A stretch of DNA of 64,000 nt, taken from assembly GCA_017651565.1 (NCBI GenBank), contig JAGCCQ010000050.1, positions 1 through 64,000 of the forward strand. Direction: 5' to 3'. Under the pieces are notes generated by a model. The model was given only the letters and a program-made list of their open reading frames with translations. It had not been told where the DNA came from and did no database searches. Origin of the DNA: Bacilli bacterium. Its GTDB lineage: Bacteria; Bacillota_I; Bacilli_A; RFN20; CAG-826. Every line of letters starts with the position of its first letter. Position 1 is the first letter of the stretch. The position numbers were made by a program, and so were the translations under genes. This document shows positions 10,991 to 63,956 of this stretch, one piece after another.

Positions 10991-13732
10991 ATGAGATTAA
11001 TTAATAAGAGTTTAACTGAAAGCATTTATTCCAACTTAAATCGTAGCGAGAGTTTAACTGAAGGAAAGAAATATATTTTACAGTATTGGGCTGACGAATA
11101 CTCAAGAGACCAAGGTTTCTCTGAAATAGAGTATATTAATGCCACAGACGATGAGGACGCAGTAGCAAAAGCAAGAGAGATCTATTATGATAACTATTGG
11201 GCTTCTTGCGAACTTGGTAGACCAGGAGATAAGGAAGTATCAGATCCTATCTTTGGTATCTACGGTAAGAAAGAAGAAAGATGGGATAAGAAACCAGCAA
11301 ATGAGAGCGTAGTTGTAACAGCAGGTAGTACTTCTGTTGTATCTGATGAGTCAGGTGTTGTTGTGTCTGATAATAACACAACTATATCTGTATCTGGTGG
11401 GGCTTCTGTTGATATAGATAACTCAATGCCAGAACCAATGCCTGTAGAAGATCCAATGACTACTGATCTAGGAGATATTCCTGGAGAAGATATGAAAGAG
11501 GAAGGAACTGACGAAGAAGAGACAGAAGAAACTGAAGAGGAAGAAGAAGTAATAGAACCTAGCGAAGAGTTAATCGAACCTGAAGAAGAGGAAGAAGAAA
11601 AACTAGAAGAAAACGCTGGAGATCCAAACAGTACTGTTGAAATATTTAAAAACCCAGACTATGATTATAAAATTACTGATATAACTGAACTTGATAATGT
11701 TGATGTTGGAGATGTGAGAAGTATTGATATGTTCTCAATACTTAATAATCTAGAAGAAGGACTTACAGCAAAGTATGGTACTGATAAGTGGGGACTTTTA
11801 AATACATATCAAACTAGGCAAGGAAGAGATAAGAAGACAAACGAAAGTTATGCCTCTGCTCTTTTAGATATATCTATTCCAAAAAGAGGACTTAAAGAAG
11901 AACTAAATACTGTCTTAACTGTTGAAGTTATTGGAAATAGAAAGTTAAAAGAGTGTGTTGTTAAAGACGCAAGATATAATAAAAGAATAGAAAGATTTTG
12001 TGGTAAAACTAATAACCCAGCAAAGTTTTTAGAAGGTGTTATTGTAGACTTAATCAATAATCGTGGAACATCTGGGCTAGTAAAATATAAACCTATGTCT
12101 GAAGATGTTAGATCTTTAAAGGAACAAGTAGCAGATGAAGCTTATGAAATTGCAGATATAATTGATAAGAACGCAGAAGCAAGAGCACAAGTAAATAAAA
12201 AGGGAGACCAAATATTACGCTGGAACGATTTTGACGAAGAGTTTATATTGGCTTGTAAAAAAGTATTTGGACTTAAAGATAAAGATTTAGATAATTTCTA
12301 TGATGGAAACTTTCTAGCAGATAAGTATAAAGATCATCCATATAGTGGTTGTGAAGATATTAATGAACTAGAAAACACTGTAAGAGGTATCCTAGGACTA
12401 AATGGTTGGGAAACAATTTGGGAAAGTGAAGACGATAACGATATTTACGAAGGAGACCTTGTTGCTAGAAATTGGGATGAATATAAACTAGACGATACAG
12501 GAAGAATAGTTAAAGAAGATGTTAACTTCCTTGTTAATAAAAAACCATTTAGTGATAAAGGTGTTAACTTTGCAGATGGTAGAGCAATCGAAAAAGATGA
12601 AAAAAGACAAAAAGCACATCTTAAAGATCGTAAGAGACTTGGTAAAACAGTTAAGACTTTTAAAGTTGAAAAGGAACCAGATCAAAAGAATACAAGAGGA
12701 AAAGAAATCTCAAAGATTTCCGACATTGTTGTCAAAGAAGGATGTGACGGGAAAACTCCCAGGGGAAAGAAAGATAAGAAGAATATAGAAGAAAATGTAA
12801 ATGAAGAAGCAGAGCGTATTATGTTAACGCCTGTTGAAAACTTTGATTATATTGATCCGTATGGTATCTATTATAAAGACGATAATGGAAATCTTTATAA
12901 GTCAGATAGTAATGGTACTGAATTATATATCTGTACTAAATCTGGAGAACCTATGGAGGCAGTAGATACTTCTAGTTATATCCTTGGGGATAAGGCTTTA
13001 AATGAAGGTAATGATAAACCATTTCTTAAAAATAAAGAAACAGGGGAAACTTACACTTTAGAAGAAGTTAAAGATAAATGGAGAGAACAGATAGAAGATT
13101 GGCAAGGAACAAATATGGAAACAACTGAAGAGAATTATCCATTTGAAATGTATCTTTCTGATATTGACGGCTTACAAGAATATGAGTTTTTACAAGAAAA
13201 AGATTTAGTTGGTAAGAAAAAACCAATTAAAGAAGCAAAAGGTCTTTTAGATGATGAGGAAGACGAAGAAGAAGTTACTAGTGAAGTTAGTGACGAAGAA
13301 TTAGTTGATACAGATTCAGAATTAGACGAAGGAACAACAGAGGTAGCAATATTCCATAGAAAACCAGCAAGTGTTGATACAATGAAACAAGCAGAGGAAA
13401 ACGGTATCACTGTTAATAAGTCAAACTATAAAATTATCGGAACTAAAGAACTAACTAATGAAGAGTTTGAAGATTTCTCAAAACACTTAACATCAAAAGG
13501 ATATGATTGGTTAAAGTCTATGTATAAGGTAGAAGATAACTCTGGTATATTCAACTGTATAGAAGTTATTAATAAAGATGATGATACAGCAACAAAACTA
13601 TTAGTTGATCCAAACGGATATGATTATGGTAGATATGTAGCATTTGAAAAAGATCAAATCGAAGAGCCTGTTGAGGCTGAAGAAGAAATAAGTGTTGAAG
13701 AAGAACCTATAGAAGATATTAAGGAAGAGTAA
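10991..13732 (+). CDS. Large (913 aa) LxE-site protein, probable internal head protein
   Basis: I place the start at the ATG at 10991, eight or nine bases after AGGAGG, rather than at an upstream TTG that overlaps the RBS. The N-terminus MRLINKSLTESIYSNL is almost the same as that of the protein at 1629, and the two genes are nearly identical over about 32 nt there. Further candidate sites are LTEG, IKEA, LNEG and LDEG. A Glu-rich low-complexity segment (near residues 165-210) separates N-terminal domains from the remainder, and the C-terminus is again acidic. A DWQGT motif is shared with the protein at 1629. The stop codon is embedded in an intrinsic terminator. No enzyme domain is recognised. 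Confidence 0.55.
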   Translation: MRLINKSLTESIYSNLNRSESLTEGKKYILQYWADEYSRDQGFSEIEYINATDDEDAVAKAREIYYDNYWASCELGRPGDKEVSDPIFGIYGKKEERWDKKPANESVVVTAGSTSVVSDESGVVVSDNNTTISVSGGASVDIDNSMPEPMPVEDPMTTDLGDIPGEDMKEEGTDEEETEETEEEEEVIEPSEELIEPEEEEEEKLEENAGDPNSTVEIFKNPDYDYKITDITELDNVDVGDVRSIDMFSILNNLEEGLTAKYGTDKWGLLNTYQTRQGRDKKTNESYASALLDISIPKRGLKEELNTVLTVEVIGNRKLKECVVKDARYNKRIERFCGKTNNPAKFLEGVIVDLINNRGTSGLVKYKPMSEDVRSLKEQVADEAYEIADIIDKNAEARAQVNKKGDQILRWNDFDEEFILACKKVFGLKDKDLDNFYDGNFLADKYKDHPYSGCEDINELENTVRGILGLNGWETIWESEDDNDIYEGDLVARNWDEYKLDDTGRIVKEDVNFLVNKKPFSDKGVNFADGRAIEKDEKRQKAHLKDRKRLGKTVKTFKVEKEPDQKNTRGKEISKISDIVVKEGCDGKTPRGKKDKKNIEENVNEEAERIMLTPVENFDYIDPYGIYYKDDNGNLYKSDSNGTELYICTKSGEPMEAVDTSSYILGDKALNEGNDKPFLKNKETGETYTLEEVKDKWREQIEDWQGTNMETTEENYPFEMYLSDIDGLQEYEFLQEKDLVGKKKPIKEAKGLLDDEEDEEEVTSEVSDEELVDTDSELDEGTTEVAIFHRKPASVDTMKQAEENGITVNKSNYKIIGTKELTNEEFEDFSKHLTSKGYDWLKSMYKVEDNSGIFNCIEVINKDDDTATKLLVDPNGYDYGRYVAFEKDQIEEPVEAEEEISVEEEPIEDIKEE

Positions 13733-42150: not shown

Positions 42151-44097
42151 ATGGCACTATTTAAAAGAAAGAGTAAACAAACACTTAACGAGGGTAATGC
42201 TAATAACTATGAAATCGCTGGACTAGACTCGTTTAATTTTATACGAGGGTTAAGAAACATCGCCTCTGATACTTATAATGTAGACTATGTACTAGATAGG
42301 ATGTTAGATGACGCTATAATTTCATCAGCTATAGATATGTATATAGATGATACATTACAAGTTGATCCACAAAAACAAGAAATATTTTGGGTTGAAGTTG
42401 ATAACACAGACGATAGACTAGAGGATGAGTTAGCAAAAGGACTAACAACAGAGTTAAACAACTTCTTAAAATCAGAACTTCAAATGAATAAGAACTTAAG
42501 GCAGATCTTAAGAAGAGTTATTGTTTATGGAAGTTGTCCTACTCGATTAGATTTTATTGATAAATTAGAAGACGATAGGCTAACATTAATTGATAAGAAT
42601 AAGAAAACCTTTGAGAGTGTTAGCGAGGTTATTCAAAAAGATATTTTTAGTGGTAAAGAGCAAGAAGACTTAACAGGGGCTTTATCAAAATTAAAAGAAG
42701 GGTTAGATTATAACCTAGAGAAAGCCTCTGATTATGATATAAAAAAGAAGATTGAAGAACTTGTTAAGGCTAGTCCTGGGAAGAAAAAATTAAAAGAAGA
42801 TGTACTTTCTCGTGACGATAAAGAAAATGTTAGAAGGTTAATGCGTGGTAGATGGTATACTGAAATAGTTTCTTCAGGAACTAATATCTGGGAGTTATGT
42901 GGTAAAGGAAAAACACTTGCTTATATGGATGTTAGAAAACCAAACTTCTTAATAAACCCAATTAATATTGTTAACTTTTCAAATGATACAGGTAAGTACT
43001 TTGTAAACTTTGAGGTTGGACCTTATCAAGAAGTAGATACAAAGAAAGATTACTTTGTATTAAAGAGAGGACAATCTTATTTAGATAAATCAATAGTTGC
43101 TTGGCAAGTATTATCAGCACTAGAAGATATTTTATTACTAACTCGTATGACAAGATCAACTCTATATAGAATATTCTCTGTCGAGGTTGGTAATAAAGGA
43201 GATGTAGCAACAAAACAATTACTTCAAGATTTAAAAAATAAAATAAAACTTGATGAAACAATAAATGTTAAAGAAAGAATATATAATTCTGATTTAAGAC
43301 AAATACCATTAGGAGATAGTATATTTATTCCAACTAGAAATGGTATTGGTAATATAGATGTTAAAGTAGTTGGTGGAGATGTTAATTTAAAAGACGCAAT
43401 AGATCTTGATTACTTTAAAGATAAGTTATTTGCTTCATTAGGTATTCCTAAAGCATTTCTTGGTTTCTCTGAAGAGAACGGTGGTGGGTTAATTAATACA
43501 TCGTTAACTCGTATGGATATAAGATATGCAAGAACTATAAAAGGAATACAGCAAATAGCTGCTGAAGGTTTAAAGGAGTTATGCTTAAAGTATTTATCTT
43601 TTACTAGACCTGAAAGTGTTTTAAGAGAATTACCAGATTTTAAAATTGTATTTACATCAATTAATACTGAAGAAGATAATCAGCGTTGCGAAACAAAACA
43701 AGTACAAATGGAAACATTAGGAAAAATACTTGAGGCGTTTGAAGGACTTGGTATTAGTGTTGGAGAAACACCAACGCTTCGTGACGAGTTAATTAAAGAG
43801 TGGCTTGGATCTAATTATTTAGAGATTATAAAAGAGGCAACAAAAGACGGAACACTAGCACAAGCAGACGAAGGTGGATCTGGTCTTGGTGGTCCAAGTT
43901 TGGGAGGAGGTCCTAGTTTAAGTGGAGGACCAAGTCTTGATACTTTTGATGGAGGACCTGATCTAGATAATTTAAGTGATGAGAACCCAGCTGAAAGTGA
44001 TATTGATTTAGATACAGAACCTATAGGAGCAAATGACACAGACTTTGAGGCTAACCCAAGTCCAGAAGCACCTAGTGGTTTAAGAAGAACATTATAG
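42151..44097 (+). CDS. Portal protein (gp20-like)
   Basis: 648 residues, compared with 524 for T4 gp20. YNVDYVLDRMLDDAIISSAI, DMYIDDTLQV, LRQILRRVIVYGSC, RPNFLINPINIV-like strands, and KDKLFASLGIPKAFLGFSEE with a following tunnel-type helix (RMDIRYARTIKGIQQ) are portal features. An N-terminal TLNE|G at residue 14 is a possible protease site. The C-terminus carries Gly/Ser/Pro repeats (GGPSLGGGPSLSGGPSL) and an acidic tail. It forms the dodecameric DNA entry channel and docks the terminase. Confidence 0.85.
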   Translation: MALFKRKSKQTLNEGNANNYEIAGLDSFNFIRGLRNIASDTYNVDYVLDRMLDDAIISSAIDMYIDDTLQVDPQKQEIFWVEVDNTDDRLEDELAKGLTTELNNFLKSELQMNKNLRQILRRVIVYGSCPTRLDFIDKLEDDRLTLIDKNKKTFESVSEVIQKDIFSGKEQEDLTGALSKLKEGLDYNLEKASDYDIKKKIEELVKASPGKKKLKEDVLSRDDKENVRRLMRGRWYTEIVSSGTNIWELCGKGKTLAYMDVRKPNFLINPINIVNFSNDTGKYFVNFEVGPYQEVDTKKDYFVLKRGQSYLDKSIVAWQVLSALEDILLLTRMTRSTLYRIFSVEVGNKGDVATKQLLQDLKNKIKLDETINVKERIYNSDLRQIPLGDSIFIPTRNGIGNIDVKVVGGDVNLKDAIDLDYFKDKLFASLGIPKAFLGFSEENGGGLINTSLTRMDIRYARTIKGIQQIAAEGLKELCLKYLSFTRPESVLRELPDFKIVFTSINTEEDNQRCETKQVQMETLGKILEAFEGLGISVGETPTLRDELIKEWLGSNYLEIIKEATKDGTLAQADEGGSGLGGPSLGGGPSLSGGPSLDTFDGGPDLDNLSDENPAESDIDLDTEPIGANDTDFEANPSPEAPSGLRRTL

Positions 44098-44107
44098 GAG
44101 GTATATT

Positions 44108-47100
44108 ATGAAGATACTAAAAGAAAACACAATTATAAAGACTTTAAAAGAAAGTGATGTTAATGCTGAAGGTTTAACTCTAATGGAAGTTATAGATAAA
44201 CTATATGGTGGCTCTTTTGATTGTGATGTTTCAGATGTAGACATAGATATTTTAGTTTGTTTTAGTTACGATAAATATGTACTAGAAGATGATGAGTATT
44301 CTCGTTTCTTAAGAGTACTTGCTGAAAGAACTAAAGTTGTTAAACAAATAACAGGCGAATATGGAAACACTTATGTCTGTGATTTTTCTTCTGTATTTAA
44401 GCCTTACAATGATGAGTTAATGAATATTTTTAATATGAATAACTCCGAGTTTGACGATAGCGAGGCTTACTATGAAGCAGTTGTTAACCTAGAGGCATTA
44501 ATTCCAGGTTATGCTGGAGAAAGAACTTATAAAGAATTAAGTGATATACTAGAAGGAAAAGGGGAAAAACTAGAACCTGTTAATCAATTCAATCATAAGT
44601 CTTTAGACGAGGCTATTGATTTAAGTAAAAATAGGGCTATGGCTGGTGCTTTAGATAAAAATAAGATTGCAAAGTTTTTAAAGGACGCTGTAAATGATTT
44701 ACAAACAACTAGTTATACTTGTAGTCAGTATATTTTAGATCCAGAACTTGCTATCTATGTTGGTTGGTCTGCTGGATGGGGAGATGAAATAAGAGACGAT
44801 ATAATTCAAGATAAGGAAAACCCTGATTATGGACTAACGGCTGGTATCAGAATTAGAGCAACTTATTGGGCTGACTTTGAATATTTAGATAGTCCTTATT
44901 TTAAAGAAGATGGAGAGTACTATGACGCTGACTTATCAATGAAACCTAATATGACAGATAAAGACTATATTAAAGACGCAGAATATCTTATAAAGTGTTA
45001 TAAAGAAATTAGAAAAGGTTTAGATAAAGGTACTTTAATATATGAGTCAAAGAAGGTTAAAGGAAAGAAAAAACTTAATGAGTCTAAAAAAGTATTAAAA
45101 GAAGGAAAAGAAAAAAAGAAATCAAAATTATCTTCTAATGATATTTTTGATGGTGTAAACTTTGAGTTTAAAAGTGGTAGTGATACTTTTTATATGTATG
45201 CTTCTTGGTATGACAACTTTGACTTTGAAGAAGAGATAGAGAGTGGAAATATACCAGAGGACGCAAACGAAGAAGATTGGGGAGCAATATATTTTGATAT
45301 ATATGATACAAATGGAGAAAACATTGACGGTGGCTTAATGGTTACTGATGAAGATGATTTTACCGTTGAAAGTCTTTGCTCCGATTTAGCTGATCTTGCT
45401 GGATACTCTTCAGTAACAAATGCTAAATTAATAGATAGTATCCCAAATAAAGATGGTGGTAAAGGTGCTAAAGTAACTTTATCTGATCTAGATAGTGAAG
45501 GGAAGAATTATACATTTACAGGAGATAGAGGTAACGGAGAAGAAGAGATGATACTTAACTTCTTCACTTCTGGTAATGCTGATGGTATAGATTATACTTT
45601 CTATACTAAAGATGGATCTGAAGTTGACGGTGGCGTTCTAGAAGTAGATAGTGAAAAAACTTGGAACTCTCCAGAGGAAGTTGCAAAAGAAATTATAGAT
45701 TTCCAAGGAATTAAAAATAAAGGAGATCTTAAAAAGTTAAACGATGGCTCTATAGAAGACATTTTAGAGGAATCAGTTAAGTCAAGTAAAAAAGTATTAA
45801 AAGAAGCAAATAGAACAAAACTAATTAAAAGTTATCTTGATTGTAAGTTAGAAAGAGATGGTAGTGGTTATGACATTGGTACTTCTTTTAAACAAGGAGA
45901 AACAGTAGAAGATTTTATTAAAGACAACCACATTTCTATAGACAAGCCACTTTATCTGTTAAACAGATCTTTAAGAAATAACGGAATTAAACCTGTTCGT
46001 GCTTGGTTAGATGATGAAGAAACATATAATAAGTTTAAAAATTATGTTGATTGGCAATTAAGAGATGGTGCTATAGACGATCCAAACTATGTTATGACTT
46101 TATCTGATGAAGAGTATAATAACTTATTAGTAAACTCTTGGATGAAGGATGAAGAAATGCGTGACGCATTTGAAGAGTTTGGACTAGAAGAGTCAATGGA
46201 TCTTGTTGGATCTCATCCTGGTTATAATGACTTTAAAGGTAAAGATCAATTAAAGAAAGCATTAGTTTCTTCTATTACTGATTGGATAGACGATAATTAC
46301 GGTAGCACTGAAGCTGATGAACCTTGTTACAATATGAAGAAATTAGTTGATACCATAATTGACAGTGGTTGCTTAAGACAAAAAGATTTAAAAACAGTTA
46401 TTTATGGTGTTATTATTAGTTGGATAGATGATAACTATGGTAGTACTGAAGCCGATGAGCCTTGTTATGATATGAAGAAGTTAACTGATGTTATTGTAAA
46501 AACAGTACAATCAATGAAGTTAAAAGAGTCAGACGAAGGTATTATAAACCCAGACGAAAAAGAATATTATGATGATACATTATATTTAGTTGGTTTATAC
46601 CCTGGTGTTGGTTACGAACTTGCAACATTTAAAGTTTATGCTAACAGTGAGGAAGGAGCACTTGAAACTGTAGTTGCTTATTGTGAAGAAAAAGGATATT
46701 TTGGTTTAATTACACCAATTAATGATTTAGAAAAAGAAGTAGAAGAAACTTATAAAGATGAGTTTGCTGAATATCAAGCAAAAAACCCTGAAAGTGATTC
46801 TTTTGATTTTATTACAAATTATCTAAATTACATTTATATTGACGCAACTCCAGAAGGTGCTAGTAAGCCATATTTTATTGACGGACAAGCAGTTTGTCAT
46901 CCAATAGATAAAATAAATGAAAGTATTGATTATGATAAAATTGTTGACGAGGGTATGACCGTTAAAGAACTAGACGATATAGCACAATGGTTATATGACT
47001 ATAGAAGAGAAGAGTGGGACAAGTTTACTGATATTGAGTTAATTGAATTAGCAAAATTATGTCAGTTAACAGACGAGAACCCATTTGGAAGAAGTTATGA

Positions 47101-49102
47101 TGATGAAGTTTTTGATGAGATGGATCGAAGAGGTTTATCTTTAAATAAAAATGAAGCCGTAACAACAAGTGAACCAAAAAGTGCAACTCAAACAACTAAT
47201 TCTAAAAAGGTTAAAGATTATCTAAATTATGAGTTACAGGACGATGATACTGAAACAGGTGGTGTATCTTTTAATGGAGAAACTGTTGAAGATTTTATCA
47301 AAGACGCAGATATAAAAGACGATGATGACCTAGATAAACTTAATAAGGCTCTAGTAAGTTGTGGAATAAAACCTATTACTGAAGGGTATGAGGGTAATTA
47401 TCGTGGAGATGATTATTGGGACTTAAGTGATAGTTATACTAATGGTAATATAACAGAGGAAGAACTAGCACAAAGTCTATTAGATATGTATGACTCAAGA
47501 ATAGAAGCTGTAAAAGCATTTAAAGAGATAACTGATAATAAAGCATTTCCCAGAAAAGAAAAATCAACAGGATCAGATATAAAAGAGATTACTGATGAAG
47601 AGATGGGCTCTTATATAGAAGCCTGGGATAATGGAGACGAGTTACCATTTGAAGGAGATAGATTTATTACTGTTGGAGATGGAGACGGTCCTATTCGTGG
47701 TGTTGGTGGTAATGGTATTATTGTTGCATTAGATAACAGAACAGGCGATTGTTGGGTTGAAGAGTTTGATAGTAAAGATAAAGCAATATCGTGGTTGAAC
47801 GATGAGTTTAATGTTGGCGATGTTATTAATGAAGAAGAAAAAAGAAGAATAGACGAAAGTTTTAATATAAAAAGTGCTTATGTTTATGAAATAAATCTAA
47901 TTAATATAATTGTAACTAACGGTCAATTTAGTGGATATTCTTACGAAGATATTAAAAAGGTATTAGAACAGAACATTAATTCCTTTACTAAAGATAAAGC
48001 AGACGATATTGAACTTAATGATGGTAAATGGTTAATATTTGATGGTGTAAAAGGAATAGATAGATATAGATTTTATCAGTTTACAGTAGAAAAGCGTATG
48101 GTTGATCCAAAAGATATAAAACCATTTCTAGAAGCAAAAGATGAGAGTTATGATGAGTATAGAAATTGGTGGGGCAGTAATATACAAACAGCAGTACCAA
48201 AAGAAGCACAAAAGATAATAGCAGATCGTTATAGTGAAGACGAAATGATAGACTTACTTAAAGATTATGAATCTGCTGGGTTAGACCGTGTTGCTTTTAG
48301 AGATTCAATGGGTAATGGTAAGTTGAGAAATGAGTGGCTAATTATAAATGATATTTATATGATGGGTTTAACAGACGAAGATAAATATCCTAGATTGCAT
48401 AAAGTTGCAAAAGAAATATACGATAAAAATAATACTGAAAAAGCAAAAGCAGAAGAACTTAACGGTGGAGGCAAAATAGAAAACGCCGTTAAGTTAGCCT
48501 CTGACGATTATAGAATACACTTCGATAATAGAACACCATTTGATATGTTCTATGCACCTGAAGAGGATGAATACCTAGAAGATTATGATTATGTTAAGTA
48601 TTACAATAAGATTTTAAATAATTTAGGTTATGCTAATATTTTAATAAATCGTAGTCCTATGGTTACTTATGTATCTGATGGAAAGCAGGAGATGGACTTT
48701 GGTAGTGGTTATGTCATAGATTTAAGAGCCTGGGATACATTTGAAGATGTTGTTAATAATACTAAAGATATTCTTGCAATATTAGAGGGGGAAGGATCTT
48801 TAAATGAATCTGTGGAAGATTTAGAAAAGAAACCCTTAAGTGTTAACAAGTTATTTAAGATCTGGTGTGATCTAATGATGGATATTGAAGATTTTGCTGA
48901 TAAGTGGAACGGTTGCAAAGGAACACCAGACGAGGTAAGAAGACAAAGAATACAATTAGTTAACCCAGCTGTTGTTGAGTTTGTTAGTGAAAACTATGAC
49001 TCAATTAAAGCACAATGGGACAGTTTTTATGATATTATGGAAGATAATAATTTCCACACGCCTTTAATAGCGATTGAAATGGAAATGAATAAATATAAAT
49101 AA
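44108..49102 (+). CDS. Giant (1664 aa) LxE-site protein, probable processed internal head protein
   Basis: It begins MKILKENTIIKTLKE|S. At least a dozen more candidate sites follow: LDEA, IYES, LNES, LKEG, LEES, LKEA, LEES, LKES, INES, ITEG, IDES and LNES. A basic linker (SKKVKGKKKLNESKKVLKEG) near residues 316-335 is flanked by sites. Two internal repeats are clear: a domain containing GETVEDFIKD near residues 600 and 1060, and a tandem unit containing WIDDNYGSTEADEPCY near 725 and 771. The protein is acidic overall. It lies between portal and capsid genes. It looks like a string of shuffled small domains; no enzyme motif is recognised. Confidence 0.6.
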   Translation: MKILKENTIIKTLKESDVNAEGLTLMEVIDKLYGGSFDCDVSDVDIDILVCFSYDKYVLEDDEYSRFLRVLAERTKVVKQITGEYGNTYVCDFSSVFKPYNDELMNIFNMNNSEFDDSEAYYEAVVNLEALIPGYAGERTYKELSDILEGKGEKLEPVNQFNHKSLDEAIDLSKNRAMAGALDKNKIAKFLKDAVNDLQTTSYTCSQYILDPELAIYVGWSAGWGDEIRDDIIQDKENPDYGLTAGIRIRATYWADFEYLDSPYFKEDGEYYDADLSMKPNMTDKDYIKDAEYLIKCYKEIRKGLDKGTLIYESKKVKGKKKLNESKKVLKEGKEKKKSKLSSNDIFDGVNFEFKSGSDTFYMYASWYDNFDFEEEIESGNIPEDANEEDWGAIYFDIYDTNGENIDGGLMVTDEDDFTVESLCSDLADLAGYSSVTNAKLIDSIPNKDGGKGAKVTLSDLDSEGKNYTFTGDRGNGEEEMILNFFTSGNADGIDYTFYTKDGSEVDGGVLEVDSEKTWNSPEEVAKEIIDFQGIKNKGDLKKLNDGSIEDILEESVKSSKKVLKEANRTKLIKSYLDCKLERDGSGYDIGTSFKQGETVEDFIKDNHISIDKPLYLLNRSLRNNGIKPVRAWLDDEETYNKFKNYVDWQLRDGAIDDPNYVMTLSDEEYNNLLVNSWMKDEEMRDAFEEFGLEESMDLVGSHPGYNDFKGKDQLKKALVSSITDWIDDNYGSTEADEPCYNMKKLVDTIIDSGCLRQKDLKTVIYGVIISWIDDNYGSTEADEPCYDMKKLTDVIVKTVQSMKLKESDEGIINPDEKEYYDDTLYLVGLYPGVGYELATFKVYANSEEGALETVVAYCEEKGYFGLITPINDLEKEVEETYKDEFAEYQAKNPESDSFDFITNYLNYIYIDATPEGASKPYFIDGQAVCHPIDKINESIDYDKIVDEGMTVKELDDIAQWLYDYRREEWDKFTDIELIELAKLCQLTDENPFGRSYDDEVFDEMDRRGLSLNKNEAVTTSEPKSATQTTNSKKVKDYLNYELQDDDTETGGVSFNGETVEDFIKDADIKDDDDLDKLNKALVSCGIKPITEGYEGNYRGDDYWDLSDSYTNGNITEEELAQSLLDMYDSRIEAVKAFKEITDNKAFPRKEKSTGSDIKEITDEEMGSYIEAWDNGDELPFEGDRFITVGDGDGPIRGVGGNGIIVALDNRTGDCWVEEFDSKDKAISWLNDEFNVGDVINEEEKRRIDESFNIKSAYVYEINLINIIVTNGQFSGYSYEDIKKVLEQNINSFTKDKADDIELNDGKWLIFDGVKGIDRYRFYQFTVEKRMVDPKDIKPFLEAKDESYDEYRNWWGSNIQTAVPKEAQKIIADRYSEDEMIDLLKDYESAGLDRVAFRDSMGNGKLRNEWLIINDIYMMGLTDEDKYPRLHKVAKEIYDKNNTEKAKAEELNGGGKIENAVKLASDDYRIHFDNRTPFDMFYAPEEDEYLEDYDYVKYYNKILNNLGYANILINRSPMVTYVSDGKQEMDFGSGYVIDLRAWDTFEDVVNNTKDILAILEGEGSLNESVEDLEKKPLSVNKLFKIWCDLMMDIEDFADKWNGCKGTPDEVRRQRIQLVNPAVVEFVSENYDSIKAQWDSFYDIMEDNNFHTPLIAIEMEMNKYK
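46281..46484 (+). repeat. Tandem intragenic duplication
   Basis: The coding sequence for WIDDNYGSTEADEPCYNMKK recurs 138 nt (46 codons) downstream as WIDDNYGSTEADEPCYDMKK. Many differences at DNA level are third-position changes, so the duplication is old enough to have drifted while the protein stayed conserved. Confidence 0.85.
49094..49101 (+). promoter_or_regulatory. T4-like late promoter TATAAATA
   Basis: Exact TATAAATA at 49094-49101, overlapping the stop of the giant gene and 20 nt before the ATG at 49114, the same spacing as at 42132 and 53311. The element coincides with a Tyr-Lys-stop coding end, so selection as a promoter is not certain. Confidence 0.4.
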
Positions 49103-49113
49103 GGAGAGGTAAT

Positions 49114-49680
49114 ATGAAAGATAGATTAAGTAATACAATACTAAAAAACATTAATGAAGCCTATGAAGGTCCATCTTATGAAAACTATGTTTGTGATTAT
49201 CTTGGAGATTATTTTATAGCATTAGAGGAAAAAGGTTTAAATAATGGTTATACATCTTTTTATGATTTTGTTTATAGTCTTTTAGATCACGCAGAGGAAG
49301 ATGATTGGTATAAAAAAGAAATGCGTCTCGTAGAAAAAATTGATGTTATAGTAAATAAAATAATAAATTATTTATATAAAGAAGACCATAAGCCCGTTAA
49401 ACGATATAATCTTTTATTAGATAAGAAAAAGACACCAAGTTTAACTAACTTTATGCTTGGATCTATTGGGTATATGTTTAAAAGTGAGGCAGATTCTAAT
49501 ATAGAGATTGATCCTATAGGTCTTTATGATTGGTTAAGTGGTGGGGAAACATTTGAAATGCTTGTTAATGATGATGATACACCAATGTTTAATCAAACTG
49601 CTATTGATAAACTAAATGAAATGTTAACCGAGTTAGATCCATTAATTCAACAAATAAATAAGTTATTATGTGAGGCTTAA
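49114..49680 (+). CDS. Tagged head-type protein, 188 aa
   Basis: It begins MKDRLSNTILKNINE|A, a CTS-like amphipathic helix ending in I-N-E-A. The mature part is helical and acidic with several aromatic residues (YGSYENYVCDYLGDYF-like start, LVEKIDVIVNKIINYLYKED). No internal site is evident except the terminal LLCEA. Internal head protein by analogy; no family. Confidence 0.5.
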   Translation: MKDRLSNTILKNINEAYEGPSYENYVCDYLGDYFIALEEKGLNNGYTSFYDFVYSLLDHAEEDDWYKKEMRLVEKIDVIVNKIINYLYKEDHKPVKRYNLLLDKKKTPSLTNFMLGSIGYMFKSEADSNIEIDPIGLYDWLSGGETFEMLVNDDDTPMFNQTAIDKLNEMLTELDPLIQQINKLLCEA

Positions 49681-49689
49681 GGAGGAAAT

Positions 49690-50232
49690 ATGAAGAATAT
49701 AAGTAATGACATATTCAGTAAGTTAAACGAAAGTGCTGAAGATAGTAAAGAAAGATTACAAGATATGGCTTATAACTTCTGTAGTGAAGTTGGTAGCGAA
49801 GCTGATCTTGAATATGTAATTAAAGAAATGAAATGGTGGTTAGAAGAAAGAAAAAGACAAAATAGAGAGGATAAGATTTCTAACCCAGGGAAAGATACAT
49901 TTCCTAGTGATATGTCTGATGACGCTTTAAGAAAACATTTAAAAGGTCTTAAAGGTAAAGGAAATGCAACAAAACGAGCAGAAGCAAAAGACGAAATTAA
50001 AAGAAGAGGAATAAAAGAGGCAAAAAGTATAGACGAGTTTGATCCAGAAGTTTTAATTGATAATATAATATCTATGCTTAAGGATACAAGTGGAATTAAA
50101 AATGTAACAAAGAGCCACGAAGACTATTCTGTTATAAGTGGAGACTATATATACTTTGATGAGTATGCTGACGATGGAGAAGTATACAAATGGGTTTTGG
50201 CTTTAGGAGAGGACGATCATAATGAAGAATAA
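49690..50232 (+). CDS. Tagged head-type protein, 180 aa
   Basis: It begins MKNISNDIFSKLNE|S. The middle has a basic helical piece (LRKHLKGLKGKGNATKRAEA, KDEIKRRGIKE|A) ending in a second site, then an acidic domain (VISGDYIYFDEYADDGEVYK). The SDDALRKHLKGL segment resembles short helical modules in the proteins at 44108 and 51010. Overlaps the next gene by 11 nt. Confidence 0.5.
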   Translation: MKNISNDIFSKLNESAEDSKERLQDMAYNFCSEVGSEADLEYVIKEMKWWLEERKRQNREDKISNPGKDTFPSDMSDDALRKHLKGLKGKGNATKRAEAKDEIKRRGIKEAKSIDEFDPEVLIDNIISMLKDTSGIKNVTKSHEDYSVISGDYIYFDEYADDGEVYKWVLALGEDDHNEE

Positions 50233-50494
50233 TGTAAGTACAAAAATACTTGAAGGAATTGAAAACGCAACTGAAATCACTTCTAATATTCAAGGAGAGT
50301 GTCCTAAATGTGGAGGAACATCACTAGACTATGGCGATGTTGTCTTTGAAGATTTTATTGACGATGGTGCTGTATATTTCCCTTGGACTTGTCCTGATTG
50401 TGGTGCTGAAGGTAGAGAGTATTACTATATATATTTTGCAACACATAAAGTAAAAGATAAGGAAGGCTACTTCGATGAAGTAGAAAAGTGGTAA
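50222..50494 (+). CDS. Tagged zinc-ribbon protein, 90 aa
   Basis: It begins MKNNVSTKILE|G. The remaining 79 residues form a zinc ribbon, with CPKCGG at about residues 25-30 and CPDCGAEGRE at about 57-66. It is the smallest tagged protein with an identifiable fold. Zinc ribbons of this type often bind nucleic acid or other proteins. Internal location is inferred. Confidence 0.55.
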   Translation: MKNNVSTKILEGIENATEITSNIQGECPKCGGTSLDYGDVVFEDFIDDGAVYFPWTCPDCGAEGREYYYIYFATHKVKDKEGYFDEVEKW

Positions 50495-50496
50495 GT

Positions 50497-51000
50497 ATGA
50501 GATTAAGAGAAGGAATTGATATAACAAAATCTATGGTAAAAAGTCTTAATGAAGAAGACGAAGTTGCAACTGATAATCAATATATGGAAAAACTTAAAAG
50601 TCTTATGGATCAACTTTCAGAAGAAGGAACTGCTTTAGAGAAAGATGTTTTAGACGATCAGTATGACGAAGTCGATGATTATGAAACACCACAAGATTTT
50701 TTAGAGCACCTTTGCGATTTACATATTGCAGACGGTAGCGTAACATCTATGATTTATTATGATGATACTCTTGCTTTTTTAGAAAAACACGAAGACGAAA
50801 TTAATGAATTATTAAGTGAGTTGTTAAAAGAAGTTGGAGGATCTTTCAAAGATTTATTTGGAGATAATTATGACGATACTGATCCAATGAATATAGGAAC
50901 TTCAAATAAAAACTTATTTGCCTGGTTTGGTTATGAAGAAATAGCCAGAAATCTTGCTTATAAGTTAAACGAACTTGGCGACTTTAACGCAAATATATAG
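50497..51000 (+). CDS. Tagged head-type protein, 167 aa
   Basis: I choose the ATG at 50497 because it gives MRLRE|GIDITKSMVKSLNE|E, like other tagged starts; a GTG at 50488 overlaps the previous gene. The RBS is weak. The remainder is very acidic and helical (YMEKLKSLMDQLSEEGTALE, LLSELLKEVGGSFKDLFGDN). No family is recognised. Confidence 0.45.
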   Translation: MRLREGIDITKSMVKSLNEEDEVATDNQYMEKLKSLMDQLSEEGTALEKDVLDDQYDEVDDYETPQDFLEHLCDLHIADGSVTSMIYYDDTLAFLEKHEDEINELLSELLKEVGGSFKDLFGDNYDDTDPMNIGTSNKNLFAWFGYEEIARNLAYKLNELGDFNANI

Positions 51001-51009
51001 GAGGTAAAA

Positions 51010-53250
51010 ATGAAAAAAGATAGATTATCAGAGAGTATTTTAAGTAATATTAAAGATGGTGGTGGTAACTTTCCAAAAAGAAAACCACTTAAAGAGTCAA
51101 AAGAGTCAGTAGTATCAAAGAAGAAATTAAAAGAAGGTAATTTCGTAATGGTTGATACACCAGATGGACCTATCTTTACTATGGCTGATGTTGTAAATAA
51201 ATGGAATAATACAAGACCAGAAGATAAAAAGTTAAAAGCAAAATCTGTTAAACCAGAGGATGTTCTTGGAAAGAAGTCTAAAAAAGACGGAAAGAAATTA
51301 AAGGAAAGTGCTGATACAGTTGAAAAAGTAATCGCAGAGGTTAATAACTTAAATAATAGCAACTTAACTAGAGGTAAATTAAAAAAAGCACTTGCCGATT
51401 TAGTTGGAGATGATTTTAATTGGTATAGAGTAGATCCAAATGATGACTATGAGTTTTCAGGATATTTTACTATAAACGATGAAGACTATGAGTTTTGTGT
51501 TAACTTTGCTGACGAGGTTTATGCCGAGTTTCGTAACGCTGATGGGGATATTCTAAATGAGTCTTGTAAAGGTAAAAAACCTAAAAAGACGATAAAAGAA
51601 GGCATTAAAGATGACGCTAAAAGTTTTATAAAGGCTAACGGTTTAGAAAGAGATTTAAAAACAAAAAGTCCAAGCGACTTTATGAAATCTGTAGATAAAA
51701 TGTTTGCAGATAATAATTTATGTACTTGGTGTGGAAAAAAGATAGTTGGAAAAGTTTGTAAAGATAAACACGGAAACCCTACTTGTGAAAAATGCTATAA
51801 AGAACTAAATGAGTCATATAAAGGAAAGAAATTAAAAGAGTCTGGTTTTAATTTATCTATACAAGGTACTTCAATTAAACCTTGTAATTGGTATTTAGAA
51901 AGAAAGTCAGAGTTTGACTCTTTATACTGTATGGCAATAGGTAGTGATAATTTAGATTATATTAAAGAAAAGTTAGACGTTTTTTATAATATGGCTAAAG
52001 ATAGTATACTAGATCCAGAACATCTTGGTTATGTTAATATGGCTGAAGGTTATAAAGGTAAAAGAAGTAAATTAAAAGAAAGTAGTGCAAACAGAAGAAA
52101 TAACTTTGCTAGTTATGTAAATAATGTTTGTAACTTCTTAAACAACTTAAGCCCTGAATTAAGTGAGGACCAAGCTGCCGAGTTAGTACATCAAGCTGCC
52201 TTTGTATACAACGATGAAGATTTAGAATTATACGAGTGTCATCATAGACTTACAGACGATATAATGAGTGAGTTGAATATTTCTGTTGAAACAGACGATG
52301 GAGATCGTATGCTTAAAACTTTACAAAGAGCAGTAGGTTATGATATTGACCTTGTTAATGAAAGTTGCAGAAGTAAGATGAGAAAAAAATTAAAAGAGTC
52401 AGATGATTTCGATATACCTAATATGACAGATGACGAATTATTTAGGTTGTTTTGGGAAATTAAAGATGATTTTGAGACAGGACAGTGGAGTTCTATGGAT
52501 GAATTGCTCCCTGCTATTGAGGAAGAACTTGAAAAAAGAGATTTAGAGCCTATATATAGTGACGAATATGACGCTTCTGTTGAGTTTGATGACGGCATTA
52601 TCGAATCTTGTAAGGGTAGAAAGAAAAAATCAATTAAAGAGAGTGCTGAAGAAGTAAAGGCTTTTTGGGATAAAGTTGGTAATAAAGAAATAAAAATTGG
52701 CGATAGTATTCCAATGGATAATAGCATAGGTAGTCAAGCAGAAATATTGGATCTTGGTGGAAGTTATTGGGACTATATTTTAGTTAAAGTAAATCACAAA
52801 AACGGAGATTATGAATATGTAGCTGCCTGGGCTCCAGGACTATATAATGATAAATTAGTTTGGGGACAAGGACATTATTTTGATACTGATTTAGACTCTG
52901 CTAGAAACTATTTTAAAAATAAAGTTGGTAGAGGTACAGTTTATACTGAAGCCTGTAAAGGTAGAAAGAAAAAATTAAAAGAAGATATAATAAAAGTTGG
53001 TGGCGTTGATCGTAACTATCGTGATGATATTGAAAGAGGAATTATGAACGAGATAAGATATGTTATTGATTCTGTTTTAGATTCTTTAGGTTCTGATGTA
53101 AGTGAAGAGAAACGCAAAAAACTAGAGGCTTTAACAGATGAAGATCTTTATAACATAGCGTCATCCGTATTATATGACAATCAATTCAATGTTGATTTAA
53201 GAAATGCTATCCAATATTATTTAGAACGATATATTAAAACATCTAGATAG
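51010..53250 (+). CDS. 746-aa polyprotein-like head protein with basic cleavable linkers
   Basis: It begins MKKDRLSE|SILSNI. Short acidic domains of about 60-110 residues are separated by basic linkers, each bracketed by LxE-type sites: NESCKGKKPKKTIKEG, NESYKGKKLKESG, AEGYKGKRSKLKESS, NESCRSKMRKKLKESD, IESCKGRKKKSIKESA and TEACKGRKKKLKED. Cutting at every site would release six basic peptides of about 9-13 residues and about seven domains. One domain has a zinc ribbon (CTWCGKK...CEKCYKE, about 238-261). T4 also packages small internal peptides made by gp21, but from its scaffold. No enzyme domain is recognised. Confidence 0.6.
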   Translation: MKKDRLSESILSNIKDGGGNFPKRKPLKESKESVVSKKKLKEGNFVMVDTPDGPIFTMADVVNKWNNTRPEDKKLKAKSVKPEDVLGKKSKKDGKKLKESADTVEKVIAEVNNLNNSNLTRGKLKKALADLVGDDFNWYRVDPNDDYEFSGYFTINDEDYEFCVNFADEVYAEFRNADGDILNESCKGKKPKKTIKEGIKDDAKSFIKANGLERDLKTKSPSDFMKSVDKMFADNNLCTWCGKKIVGKVCKDKHGNPTCEKCYKELNESYKGKKLKESGFNLSIQGTSIKPCNWYLERKSEFDSLYCMAIGSDNLDYIKEKLDVFYNMAKDSILDPEHLGYVNMAEGYKGKRSKLKESSANRRNNFASYVNNVCNFLNNLSPELSEDQAAELVHQAAFVYNDEDLELYECHHRLTDDIMSELNISVETDDGDRMLKTLQRAVGYDIDLVNESCRSKMRKKLKESDDFDIPNMTDDELFRLFWEIKDDFETGQWSSMDELLPAIEEELEKRDLEPIYSDEYDASVEFDDGIIESCKGRKKKSIKESAEEVKAFWDKVGNKEIKIGDSIPMDNSIGSQAEILDLGGSYWDYILVKVNHKNGDYEYVAAWAPGLYNDKLVWGQGHYFDTDLDSARNYFKNKVGRGTVYTEACKGRKKKLKEDIIKVGGVDRNYRDDIERGIMNEIRYVIDSVLDSLGSDVSEEKRKKLEALTDEDLYNIASSVLYDNQFNVDLRNAIQYYLERYIKTSR

Positions 53251-57941: not shown

Positions 57942-58475
57942 ATGAAACTTAATGAAAGTATTTTACATAATTTAAAGGAAGGTAGCCCTGTAACAGTTAT
58001 ATGTGGTGGGACAAAGTTTGAGTTTGATAGTTTAGATAAAGCAAAGTCTTTCTGGTTAAACTGTTACTATAATAGTGAAGGATCAGAGCAAAGTAGATAT
58101 GAAGATATTTTAATGGATCTAAATGACGGAGAAACTTTTGTTACTGACGGATCAACTCCAAAATCTGGTGTTGACCTATACAATAAATACAAGGGTGTTA
58201 AGGACTCTGGAAAGTATAAAGTAATGGATAGAGAATATACTTTAGGTGGAGATAGTTGGAAAACAGCAGAAGATTATATCACTTTCTTTAATGGATCTGA
58301 TCTTGCTAGAAGTAAATCTACTTGGAAAGAGTTTAGAGACGAAATGGCTAAAGGTGGCTATGACAAGGAGTCTAAATATTTACAAAATAAATTAGAAAAA
58401 GATTTTGGTGTTAAACTTGAGGGAGCAACACCAAGAAGACATAAAGGCGTTAGAAGAAAAAGAGGAGGGTGTTAG
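57942..58475 (+). CDS. Tagged head-type protein with basic tail, 177 aa
   Basis: It begins MKLNE|SILHNLKE|G with two possible sites. The middle is an acidic mixed domain (VTVICGGTKFEFDSLDKAKS, YITFFNGSDLARSKSTWKEF). The last 17 residues (GATPRRHKGVRRKRGGC) are strongly basic, giving a potential DNA-binding tail. It follows the FtsK-like gene after one base. No family. Confidence 0.5.
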   Translation: MKLNESILHNLKEGSPVTVICGGTKFEFDSLDKAKSFWLNCYYNSEGSEQSRYEDILMDLNDGETFVTDGSTPKSGVDLYNKYKGVKDSGKYKVMDREYTLGGDSWKTAEDYITFFNGSDLARSKSTWKEFRDEMAKGGYDKESKYLQNKLEKDFGVKLEGATPRRHKGVRRKRGGC

Positions 58476-59877: not shown

Positions 59878-62409
59878 ATGAAAAGTACATTAATAGAAAG
59901 TACAAAATCAAAGTTTCAAGTACTAGCACAAAAACCAGCAAATGTCTTAAAAAGAATACAGGGCGTACTTTCAGACTTTGGTTCTAATAGAAATGGTAGA
60001 ATATATCCAAGAGAGTTATGGGAAAATGTAATTAATTCAGATTATGTAAAAGAAATGATTGACTCTCACGGACTTGTTGGAGAATTAGACCACCCAGAAG
60101 AAAGACTTGAAATATCACTTCAAAATGTTTCGCACGTTATTAATGATATGTGGATCGAAGGCGATAAAGTTATGGGTGTTATAGATATATTACCAACACC
60201 AAACGGAAAGATTGTAAATGAATTATTAGACTATGGTACTGATATTGGTATTAGTTCTCGTGGTGCTGGTTCTGTAGGTGCTGGAAATATAGTTGATCCA
60301 GATTATCAATTTATAACTTTTGATTTTGTAGCAAGACCTAGTTGTGAGGCAGCTAGACTTAACACAATTCTTGAGGGTGTTAAAGTTGATCTAGAGAACA
60401 ACAGTGACGATAAAGTAAATAAAATACTAGAAAGTTATAAGTCAGAACTAAAAGAAAGTTCTGATGGTGCTGATATAACAGATGAAGAGAAAGAGTTTTA
60501 TGGCTATGGAAATAGATATAGAACTTTAGAGCAAATGATTAAGTTATTTAAACAATATTCTTATGAGTTTGAAACTAAAGCACACAGGGAGAAAAATGAG
60601 TTCTATAGAGGACTTGCTGAAGGTTATAGTAGGGCTTCCTTTGAGTTAGAACATAATCTAGATCCAGAGAAACATAAATTAAACGAGGCTATGTCAGATC
60701 AAGAAGTATATAAAGTAGTGCTTAATTGGTATAAAGATCAAATTGAGGCTGGTAAAATGACACTTAATCAGTGTTACGAGTTACTATCAGATAAAGCAAA
60801 GGTTAGTTTAAATAAATTAGTTGATAAATCTAAAATACAAGAAAGTATAAGAGCAACATTAAAAAAACCTTTAAGAGAAGCCGTTGAAACAGTTTATTAT
60901 ACTCTTGCTATACCAACTGAAAAGGGGGAGCGTAACTTATTAGTTAAGGCTCCAAAGAAGTATAATATTGATAGTAAAGAAGATTATCTAAAACTTGTTG
61001 ATGATTTATATAAAAAAGGTTTAATTAATTTAGACGAAAAAGAAGATTTTGAGTTTGGTAATTTCAAATGTATTGAAAGAGACGATTCAGCAGAGTTTTT
61101 CATAAGCCACGGAATTAAACTATTAGACTTAACATCTAAAGGTAATAAGTTAAAGGAAGACTATGAAGACTATGCAAACAAAGGAGAATACTCTGATAAA
61201 GTATTTGTTGCTAAAGCAAATGACAACGAAAGAAAAAACTTAAAAAAAGAACTTGCTAAAAGATTTAAAGTAGGTACAAGAGTTTATGTTTATGGAGAAG
61301 GTCCTGGAAGTGTAAAACTATATGATGAGAAAAATGGAGAGTTTGGATCTGTAAAAGTTTTATTAGATAGGGGAGAGTTGATCCCTGTTAGTCTTGGTGT
61401 AGACCGTATTGATTTGATAAAAGATGTTGAATCTTTCGTTTGTTATAACTGTGGAAAGTATTTTGTAGGTAAGTTAAAACAAAATGGTACTATGCCTAAC
61501 TGTCCTAATTGCTATGAGACAGTATATAAAGACGATGATAGAAGAGATAGTGACGGACACGCTAATAAGGACGTGCATATCCATAAACTAGGAGAGTCAT
61601 ATAAAATGATAGGTAAACCAATATATGAAGCATATAACCCAAAAGAAGATCAAAAATATAAAAAGATGATCCAGGATGAGTTTGGCTATTGTATAGATGA
61701 GATAGATGTAGAAGGACCTGGAGAAATCTGGATATACCTTAAAGATAAATATATATCATCAGAGATGGAAGGACACACAATTCACGAGCAAACTTTTAAG
61801 GCTTGTTATGAAATGCTTAAAAATGGAATCGAAGAATCGTTAAGTGAATCTGCTGACGGTGTACCTTCATCACTAGAACTAAATACAGGAGTACTTCCAA
61901 TAATAGATACAGGTATTTATGGGCGTGAAGAAGATATATGGCGTTATATAGAAGATGACGAAGGAAGTTATGAGGATGGTCCAGAAACTATGGAAGATCT
62001 AGATAAGGCTATGATAGACATCGGTGGACCTATGCTTCAAGAGATGATACAGGAAGTTTTACCGAGTGCTACTGTAGAAGTAACAGGGGTACATCATCCT
62101 ACTTTCTATAACTATTCAACTGATGAGTTAGAGTTTAATTTAGGATATGATCCAAATGAACTTAATGAACTTATTAATAGAGCCGTTAGTGAAAAAGAGT
62201 TTGAAGAATACTTAAAATCATTTAGTAGTTACAGTGGTTTTGTTTCATTTATGGCTGATAATCTAGAGGACTTTGATACAGAAGACTATTGGAAAAAAGC
62301 AGTACAAGTTTTATGTTACTACCTAGGGGACAAAAAAGATTATCACGAAGCATTAAACTATGAAGCAACAACCGATTTCTGGGATGATGTTATTCAATCT
62401 TTTAGATAA
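59878..62409 (+). CDS. Prohead maturation protease (gp21-like) fused to a long LxE-bearing extension
   Basis: 843 residues, compared with 212 for T4 gp21. Residues 1-190 are the protease: GELDHPEERLEISL contains the probable catalytic His72, NVSHVINDMWIEGDKVMGV follows, and DIGISSRGAGSVG holds the nucleophile Ser126 or 127. The remaining 650 residues carry candidate self-cleavage sites (ILEG, ILES, LKES, LNEA, IQES, LREA, LGES, IYEA, LSES) and a zinc ribbon near 521-544 (CYNCGKYF...CPNC) resembling that of the protein at 1629. The extension may serve as scaffold or core. It is directly upstream of the capsid gene, as gp21 is close to gp23 in T4. Confidence 0.88.
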   Translation: MKSTLIESTKSKFQVLAQKPANVLKRIQGVLSDFGSNRNGRIYPRELWENVINSDYVKEMIDSHGLVGELDHPEERLEISLQNVSHVINDMWIEGDKVMGVIDILPTPNGKIVNELLDYGTDIGISSRGAGSVGAGNIVDPDYQFITFDFVARPSCEAARLNTILEGVKVDLENNSDDKVNKILESYKSELKESSDGADITDEEKEFYGYGNRYRTLEQMIKLFKQYSYEFETKAHREKNEFYRGLAEGYSRASFELEHNLDPEKHKLNEAMSDQEVYKVVLNWYKDQIEAGKMTLNQCYELLSDKAKVSLNKLVDKSKIQESIRATLKKPLREAVETVYYTLAIPTEKGERNLLVKAPKKYNIDSKEDYLKLVDDLYKKGLINLDEKEDFEFGNFKCIERDDSAEFFISHGIKLLDLTSKGNKLKEDYEDYANKGEYSDKVFVAKANDNERKNLKKELAKRFKVGTRVYVYGEGPGSVKLYDEKNGEFGSVKVLLDRGELIPVSLGVDRIDLIKDVESFVCYNCGKYFVGKLKQNGTMPNCPNCYETVYKDDDRRDSDGHANKDVHIHKLGESYKMIGKPIYEAYNPKEDQKYKKMIQDEFGYCIDEIDVEGPGEIWIYLKDKYISSEMEGHTIHEQTFKACYEMLKNGIEESLSESADGVPSSLELNTGVLPIIDTGIYGREEDIWRYIEDDEGSYEDGPETMEDLDKAMIDIGGPMLQEMIQEVLPSATVEVTGVHHPTFYNYSTDELEFNLGYDPNELNELINRAVSEKEFEEYLKSFSSYSGFVSFMADNLEDFDTEDYWKKAVQVLCYYLGDKKDYHEALNYEATTDFWDDVIQSFR

Positions 62410-62600: not shown

Positions 62601-63956
62601 ATGGAAGTTAGACAATACTTAACTGAAAACGAACATTTACTTCGTAAACATAGCCGTATGATTAGTGCTGTAAACAAAGCATTAAAAGAAAATGCTAATT
62701 ACGGAAGAGAATTAGATGAGTTTAAAAAAGCTAATTTAGCAGTTATGCTTGAAAATGTTTCACACGCTTTTGATGTTAGAAAAAAACTTACTGAAGCACA
62801 AGGAACACAAGTAGGAGACATAGCAAAGAAAAATGACTATTTAAACTTAATCTCTGCAGTAATGCCAACACTAGTTGCTGAAGACCTAGTAAATGTGCAA
62901 CCTTTAAAACAAAAAGCAGGAGTAGTTTACTACTTAAAAAATGTTTTTGATGATGATAAAGGTGGAATTAGCAAGGGAGATGTAATATCTTCATTTGAAA
63001 GAGTTTATGTAGAAGACTCAAAACTAAATAGTGCGTTTAATTATTCTGCTGAAACTGTAGATAGCGAAGCACTAACTATCGTAGAAGGATCAGCAAAATT
63101 AGCTTGGATACCTGTAGTACCAGGATCAGTTGTAATCGGTACTGATACAGATGACGGAGAAGGTCATATCGGAACAGCAACTATTGATTACGAAACAGGT
63201 GTTATCACAGGTTTAACAGATCAAACTGAAGCGTCTTATAAACAAGACCTATATCAAGCACCAATTAGAGTGCCAAGAGTAAAAACAATCGTTACTGATA
63301 TTACTGTAACAGCAAGACCTAGAAAACTAGCAACTGCTTTCAGTTTAGACGCAGCTTACGATTTACAAATGACACAAAATGTTGATTTACAATCAATCAT
63401 CGCTGGTGCAGCTACTGATGAAATCAGAAGCGAAATTGATGGAGAAATCTTAAATGATTTAGCAAACTCTGGAACATCAATGACTATAAGTTGGAACCAA
63501 CCTGTACCATTTGGTATTTCAAAGTTCGATCACTATGAAAGTTTCTATCAAACAATCGTTGAGGGTGCTAATAAGATTTATGCTAAAACTCGTAGAATTA
63601 CAGGAAACTTTGTAATTGTAGGAGAAAACGCAGCTAATGTTATTGAAACTCACTCAAAGTTTAAGGCAGCTGCTAGTCTTAATGAGGCTGGACCACACGT
63701 TGCTGGAACACTTAACGGTAAGTACCTAGTTGTTAAAAACCCTTACTTTGACGCAGATCAATTCGTAATCGGTTACAACGGAGATACTCCTTGGGATGGT
63801 GGTTATGTTTATGCTCCATATATGGCAATTACATCAACTCAATTCATTATGGGAGAAAACTTCTTGGGTACTCAAGGATATGCAACTTCTTACGCAAAGA
63901 AATTACTTTCTGGTAACTTCTATGTAAACGGAACAATAACACATATCACTGAATAG
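62601..63956 (+). CDS. Major capsid protein precursor (gp23-like)
   Basis: 451 residues, somewhat shorter than T4 gp23 (521). A helical N-terminal 65 residues ends KKLTE|A at 65/66, the same position at which T4 gp23 is cleaved by gp21. Then follow YLNLISAVMPTLVAEDLVNV and QPLKQKAGVVYYLKNVF, which match the N-terminal arm of gp23, and an HK97-fold body (RIPRVKTIVTDITVTARPRK-like strand, EIRSEIDGEILNDLAN, ITGNFVIVGENAANVIE). It uses a GGAGG RBS at eight bases and visibly more GCA/GAA/AAC codons, consistent with high expression. Confidence 0.92.
   Translation: MEVRQYLTENEHLLRKHSRMISAVNKALKENANYGRELDEFKKANLAVMLENVSHAFDVRKKLTEAQGTQVGDIAKKNDYLNLISAVMPTLVAEDLVNVQPLKQKAGVVYYLKNVFDDDKGGISKGDVISSFERVYVEDSKLNSAFNYSAETVDSEALTIVEGSAKLAWIPVVPGSVVIGTDTDDGEGHIGTATIDYETGVITGLTDQTEASYKQDLYQAPIRVPRVKTIVTDITVTARPRKLATAFSLDAAYDLQMTQNVDLQSIIAGAATDEIRSEIDGEILNDLANSGTSMTISWNQPVPFGISKFDHYESFYQTIVEGANKIYAKTRRITGNFVIVGENAANVIETHSKFKAAASLNEAGPHVAGTLNGKYLVVKNPYFDADQFVIGYNGDTPWDGGYVYAPYMAITSTQFIMGENFLGTQGYATSYAKKLLSGNFYVNGTITHITE

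Follow-up and report, generated by a model that had tools for sequence, protein, structure and literature searches.

The window analyzed here, a stretch of 64,000 nucleotides, belongs to a 116,171-base contig (C42 of G000) that was binned with a bacterial metagenome-assembled genome (MAG) of 1.58 Mb. Homologs of the gp20 portal, the gp21 protease, and the gp23 capsid protein are encoded on this contig, which we therefore assign to an uncultured T4-like phage (Table 1). The phage contig was absent from the same-family and same-order MAGs searched, so that its link to a host is only putative. Its nearest relative is the IMG/VR contig G001 (123.5 kb), with a protease 84% and a capsid protein 88% identical. 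Capsid proteins 59-62% identical mark two further relatives, L031 and L033, and GTDB contig scans with the protease and the capsid protein as queries gave no matches. A 479-aa protein (positions 14827-16266) has a GroEL-like (chaperonin) start, and G001 has an ORF of the same length with a similar start.

Table 1. Positions of the genes and predicted segments discussed in the text (↓, predicted cleavage site; charges are net charges).
Feature	Position	Strand	Basis or remarks
1695-aa tagged multi-site protein	1629..6716	+	18 sites vs 4.0 expected
922-aa multi-site protein	8221..10989	+	phrog_4264 module between LNE275↓ and LRE363↓
913-aa tagged multi-site protein (open frame from 10973)	10991..13732	+	phrog_21303 module
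gp20-type portal	42151..44097	+	PF07230, 2.5e-40; N-terminal site LNE14↓G
1664-aa tagged multi-site protein	44108..49102	+	LPD16, phrog_30135, and phrog_37393 modules; 15 sites
Four short ORFs 5' of the 746-aa ORF	49114..50997	+	Most with targeting-type tags; DUF7222 in 50488
746-aa ORF, candidate polyprotein	51010..53250	+	ATG start, linker repeat, site statistics
N-terminal leader: targeting-type tag MKKDRLSESILSNIKD, then basic segments	51010..51135	+	Predicted cuts LKE29↓S, LKE42↓G
Basic segment 43-99, terminating KKSKKDGKKLKE↓S	51136..51306	+	Predicted KKLKE99↓S site
Domain 100-184	51307..51561	+	-13
Linker 1, residues 185-197	51562..51600	+	LNE↓SCKGKKPKKTIKE↓G
Domain 198-268, zinc-ribbon-like CxxC...CxxC	51601..51813	+	+4; weak DZR match, E=0.033
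Linker 2, residues 269-277	51814..51840	+	LNE↓SYKGKKLKE↓S
Domain 278-346	51841..52047	+	-5
Linker 3, residues 347-357	52048..52080	+	MAE↓GYKGKRSKLKE↓S
Domain 358-451	52081..52362	+	-13
Linker 4, residues 452-463	52363..52398	+	VNE↓SCRSKMRKKLKE↓S
Domain 464-532	52399..52605	+	-21
Linker 5, residues 533-544	52606..52641	+	IIE↓SCKGRKKKSIKE↓S
Domain 545-647	52642..52950	+	-5
Linker 6, residues 648-658	52951..52983	+	YTE↓ACKGRKKKLKE↓D
Domain 659-746	52984..53247	+	-5; weak Imm2-like match, E=0.0034, below cut-off
FtsK/SpoIIIE-like ATPase among head genes	56402-57940		PF01580, 9e-58
Tagged protein MKLNESILHNLKE↓G	57942..58472	+	phrog_34775 domain begins at residue 17
gp21-type prohead protease, long multi-site C-terminal extension	59878..62409	+	PF03420, 1e-16; phrog_207, 7e-47
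gp23-type major capsid protein	62601..63956	+	PF07068, 3e-52; predicted maturation site LTE65↓A

Judged by all simple criteria, ORF 51010-53250 is a genuine gene, with a strong ribosome-binding site (AGGAGG) a few bases 5' of its ATG, a codon-position GC pattern resembling that of the adjacent genes, and a long open frame. The original prediction that its product contains six linkers of one form is borne out, as all six fit E-[SAG]-[CY]-[KR]-[GS]-[KR]...[LI]-K-E. They had also been described as flanked by prohead-protease-type sites, which is accurate for the downstream [LI]KE (6/6), whereas upstream only LNE, LNE, and IIE (three of six) are strict T4-type [LI]xE sites and MAE, VNE, and YTE are not. 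Likewise, the domains between the linkers are acidic as described after residue 99 (-5 to -21), with the exception of the positively charged domain 198-268. Overlooked were a leader at the N terminus, predicted to be cut at 29 and 42, a further KKLKE↓S site at 99, and sites of the same type in many neighboring ORFs. In the leader, the tag core SILSNIKD has a D where E is expected, and LKE29 and LKE42 follow it.

These sites are far more frequent than composition predicts. In composition-preserving shuffles of the 746-aa protein, 1.59 occurrences of [LI]xE[SAG] were expected and 12 are present; for K/R-rich segments between two sites, the numbers are 0.001 and 6. The motif E[SAG][CY][KR][GS][KR] occurs six times among the proteins of the contig (0.07 expected), always in this protein. 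At the P1' position of tagged-cluster sites, Ser codons of both families (AGY and TCN) are used, with 54% AGY compared to 47% AGY genome-wide. These roughly genomic proportions indicate that the E↓S grammar is preserved in the protein sequence rather than by copying of a DNA repeat. Linkers 5 and 6 are almost identical at the DNA level. A recent copying of the linkers as a DNA repeat was considered and is unsupported.

Per-domain searches of Pfam and PHROGs with the 746-aa protein gave weak matches only (Imm2 and DZR; Table 1), which we did not assign. The chain has no confident match to the known conflict-related domain families by which polyvalent proteins are recognized, and no match to a scaffold-family profile. 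PADLOC gave no matches. A single-sequence AlphaFold2 model (pLDDT 38) was too poor to show domains and was dropped. No relatives of the protein were found by tblastn in phages (E up to 5) or plasmids, in an IMG/VR peptide scan, in its own genome, or in G001, the contig of which stops within the homolog of the adjacent 1664-aa gene, that is, in the region of the 746-aa ORF.

Sites of the same grammar extend well beyond this gene. In the head and tagged clusters, we counted 31 occurrences of [LI][KN]ES in 12.1 kaa, compared with 4 in 25.0 kaa elsewhere (16-fold, p=1e-11); these clusters were selected visually on an initial gene table, so that the enrichment p-values are a guide and not exact. 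The enrichment recurs in G001 (10.5-fold), and LxD and LxQ controls are flat in the same clusters. In the multi-site proteins, most predicted sites have Ser at P1'; at sites elsewhere, Ala or Gly predominates. Like the 1695-aa and 1664-aa proteins (Table 1), a 919-aa protein (8 sites) and the 843-aa protease (12 sites) have an excess of sites. Many neighboring ORFs begin with a T4-like capsid-targeting tag ending LKE or LNE. A tag motif derived from the contig itself, I-[LIYFM]-x(1,2)-[NSTKL]-[LIF]-[KNTQ]-[ED], is found at the N terminus of 9 of its 136 ORFs (0.42 expected), and applied afterwards to other phages it recurs in G001 (4, 0.27 expected) and in L031 (3 of 20, 0 expected). It replaced a first, looser N-terminal pattern (21 observed, 13.4 expected).

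The structural proteins carry such sites as well. The predicted maturation site of the capsid protein, LTE65↓A, coincides with the position at which T4 gp23 loses a 65-residue N terminus (PMC9958956), and is retained in relatives, which have LTE↓S or MTE↓S at the matching place. The portals of this phage, G001, and L031 have a common basic N terminus ending LNE↓ or LEE↓ (MALFKRKSKQTLNE↓G), which suggests that the portal protein may also be trimmed. The FtsK/SpoIIIE-like ATPase begins MSRNIYYKILE↓A, like a targeting tag, and has a counterpart in G001 (L002 4497-6029); it is conceivable that it is a packaged DNA translocase. Overall, it is very likely that a T4-type tag-and-cut system operates in this phage. 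Because of the site enrichment, the neighboring tags, and the capsid site LTE65↓A, the linkers are very probably substrates of the prohead protease, and the proposal of a cleavable polyprotein with gp21-type sites is supported by inference.

That a prohead protease is encoded at 59878 is supported by a PF03420 (Peptidase_S77) score above the family cut-off. Residues H72 (GELDHP) and S126/S127 (GISSRGAG) are invariant in an alignment across four phages, and we take them to be the equivalents of the T4 catalytic residues. The start of the protein carries LIE7↓S, where relatives have LTE↓S or LNE↓N, and LKE193↓S is a second predicted site; T4 gp21 trims nine N-terminal residues from itself (PMC9958956). 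The evidence that the protease cuts after [LI]xE is only indirect, coming from the site enrichment and the capsid-protein site. Its homology to the G001 protease breaks off twice, each time no more than 3 residues from a site (LKE193↓ and LRE334↓), with divergence directly after. The C-terminal extension consists of swapped modules, one of them a zinc ribbon in common with the 1695-aa protein (36%). No gp22-type scaffold ORF was found between the protease and capsid genes.

The other multi-site proteins contain modules that are separate genes elsewhere. In the 922-aa protein, phrog_4264 fills the fragment between its two flanking sites, and its stand-alone homologs begin at about the matching residue. 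About 190 phage records, mainly from Gram-positive hosts, have phrog_4264 as a small stand-alone gene; in the herellevirus Bacillus phage P59 it is situated within the annotated terminal repeat, and in Bacillus phage 043JT007 close to the genome end. The terminal region of SPO1 contains a host takeover module (PMC6873191). DUF7222, present in ORF 50488, is a small gene close to the record ends of Enterococcus herelleviruses. Protein 53331 joins DUF5662 to a second domain across LKE223↓; in L031, that second domain is a tagged protein of its own. In L033 (6250-8175), a relative of this second domain is interrupted by an apparent intein and a GIY-YIG-type endonuclease ORF. LPD16, reported in polyvalent proteins only from conjugative elements (PMC5512222), has a match (1.4e-6) in the phage head-cluster protein 44108-49102.

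Statistical support for module boundaries at the sites is moderate. Within 12 aa of a site lie 21 of 55 homology-block ends (9.7 expected, p=0.0002), and the excess persists within 8 aa (p=0.016); within 4 aa, it is not significant (7 compared to 4.0 expected, p=0.09). By a strict criterion of proximity, only three of six profile module starts qualify (p=0.036). A scan of viral contigs for ESCKGKK led to L045, an unrelated 25-kb phage contig encoding a 220-aa protein (3366-4028) with five ES[CY]K motifs, in which the phrog_4264 domain stands directly behind ESCKGKKITE↓A and is preceded by a weak LPD26 match. As the single informative match among about 80, L045 is suggestive only; the remaining ESYKGKK and ESCKGKK matches were mostly unrelated and were set aside. 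Neither L031 nor L033 has a polyprotein near its portal and protease genes, and the arrangement is therefore not general.

We consider it reasonably probable that the product of ORF 51010-53250 is a polyprotein made up of mini-proteins internal to the head and probably injected, in which the linkers would be excised spacers. The leader, like a T4 capsid-targeting sequence, would carry the whole chain into the prohead core. Judging from the site grammar, the gp21-type protease would cut every linker on its 3' side after [LI]KE and on its 5' side after E, the latter probably less specifically. This would remove basic spacers of 9-13 residues and release about eight domains, each roughly 57-103 residues long. 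The spacers would exit or stay inert, and the domains would remain with the DNA and enter the next host on ejection, like T4 IPI-III and Alt. The advantage would be that a single tag suffices to package, in fixed stoichiometry, a set of small and rapidly evolving proteins for host takeover or against the host, which in other phages are separate early genes. A wider proposal, which we advance only tentatively and which may well prove wrong, is that a tailed phage has turned its capsid-maturation protease to the processing of polyproteins: families of host-takeover mini-proteins, which are early terminal-repeat genes in other phages, would be fused and tagged, packed into the head, double-cut at [SAG][CY]K..LKE linkers, and injected ready-made.

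It is unlikely, in our estimate, that the chain is instead a scaffold-like core filler that is chopped and the pieces of which exit the prohead like T4 gp22, gp67, and gp68, with nothing injected. T4 core proteins undergo precisely such multi-site cutting (PMC9026906), but here the sites are placed at linkers and not throughout the chain. The overall charge of the 746-aa chain is acidic and the protease itself bears a 12-site extension; however, fragments of 57-103 residues without family matches, including a CxxC...CxxC module, are unlike a conserved repetitive scaffold, and the sister multi-site proteins hold recognizable stand-alone gene modules.

Even less likely, we think, is injection of an uncut polyvalent protein from which only the leader is removed, the linkers being flexible basic connectors multiplied by recombination. 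E is strictly retained at every linker end, the E↓S grammar shows an enrichment that D and Q lack and draws on both Ser codon families, and a protease gene lies 6.6 kb downstream, although the linkers do have a common core unneeded for cutting. Precedents exist in multidomain polyvalent phage proteins, some of which are delivered without processing (PMC5512222).

The original prediction proposed that the freed basic peptides could neutralize DNA; that this is the purpose of the arrangement is not upheld by the charge bookkeeping. Each linker contributes +3 to +5 and all six together +27, and the whole 746-aa chain carries -19; to balance 10% of the DNA charge of the 116-kb contig, we compute that about 860 chains per head would be required. 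The T4 head holds about 370 copies of IPIII (PMC9958956), and most T4 core fragments and propeptides exit the prohead before packaging (PMC9958956, PMC9026906). In addition, basic leaders ending LKE occur singly at the N termini of single-gene tagged proteins, such as NIKE↓SKKRVIKE↓S in 41205, and look like propeptides. Given the small charge, the exit of T4 fragments, and these single leaders, we read the linkers as internal propeptides; they look like throw-away connectors and not like DNA-neutralizing peptides. That the peptides are the product and are kept in the head is thus the most doubtful of the alternatives, despite six related K/R-rich 9-13-mers sharing a [CY]K[GS]K core beyond cleavage needs. 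Possible roles of this conserved core, which is not required for cutting, are protease docking, core binding, or disulfide chemistry.

A polyprotein of packaged mini-proteins would resemble several known systems. T4 IPI, IPII, IPIII, and Alt have an N-terminal propeptide of 10-19 residues ending [LI]xE that is a target of a gp21-type protease, and are several unrelated mature proteins with only the tag in common (PMC3012670, PMC9026906). They differ in having one tag and one protein per gene, whereas the 746-aa chain has many domains and predicted excisable linkers. The T4 scaffold proteins gp22 and gp67 are single chains with several gp21-type cuts, of which some fragments remain in the head (PMC9026906); in the 746-aa chain, by contrast, the short fragments that recur are basic linkers, and the segments they separate are larger and non-repetitive. 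Polyvalent proteins likewise combine many small domains in one delivered protein and have been likened to viral polyproteins, and LPD16 is common to them and to sister protein 44108-49102; release from them was proposed to involve embedded peptidase domains, in contrast to the separate head-maturation protease considered here (Iyer et al. 2017, PMC5512222). In phiKZ and SPN3US, a T4-like protease cuts ejection proteins after E, several times in long propeptides (PMC10052503, PMC5694885). As far as the available portions of these accounts go, such cuts take off propeptides, and many-domain release from one chain does not appear there.

In conclusion, we report here a phage gene with a linker repeat that very probably serves the prohead protease as a substrate. 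If our interpretation is correct, it would connect the capsid-targeting tags of T4 with multidomain polyvalent proteins and with the clustered tiny early genes of Gram-positive phages. [LI][KN]E↓S would then be a cleavage code by which packaged and injected phage proteins, and the positions at which they are cut, could be predicted from sequence. The tag-and-linker architecture would moreover provide a modular design to load several proteins into one head.
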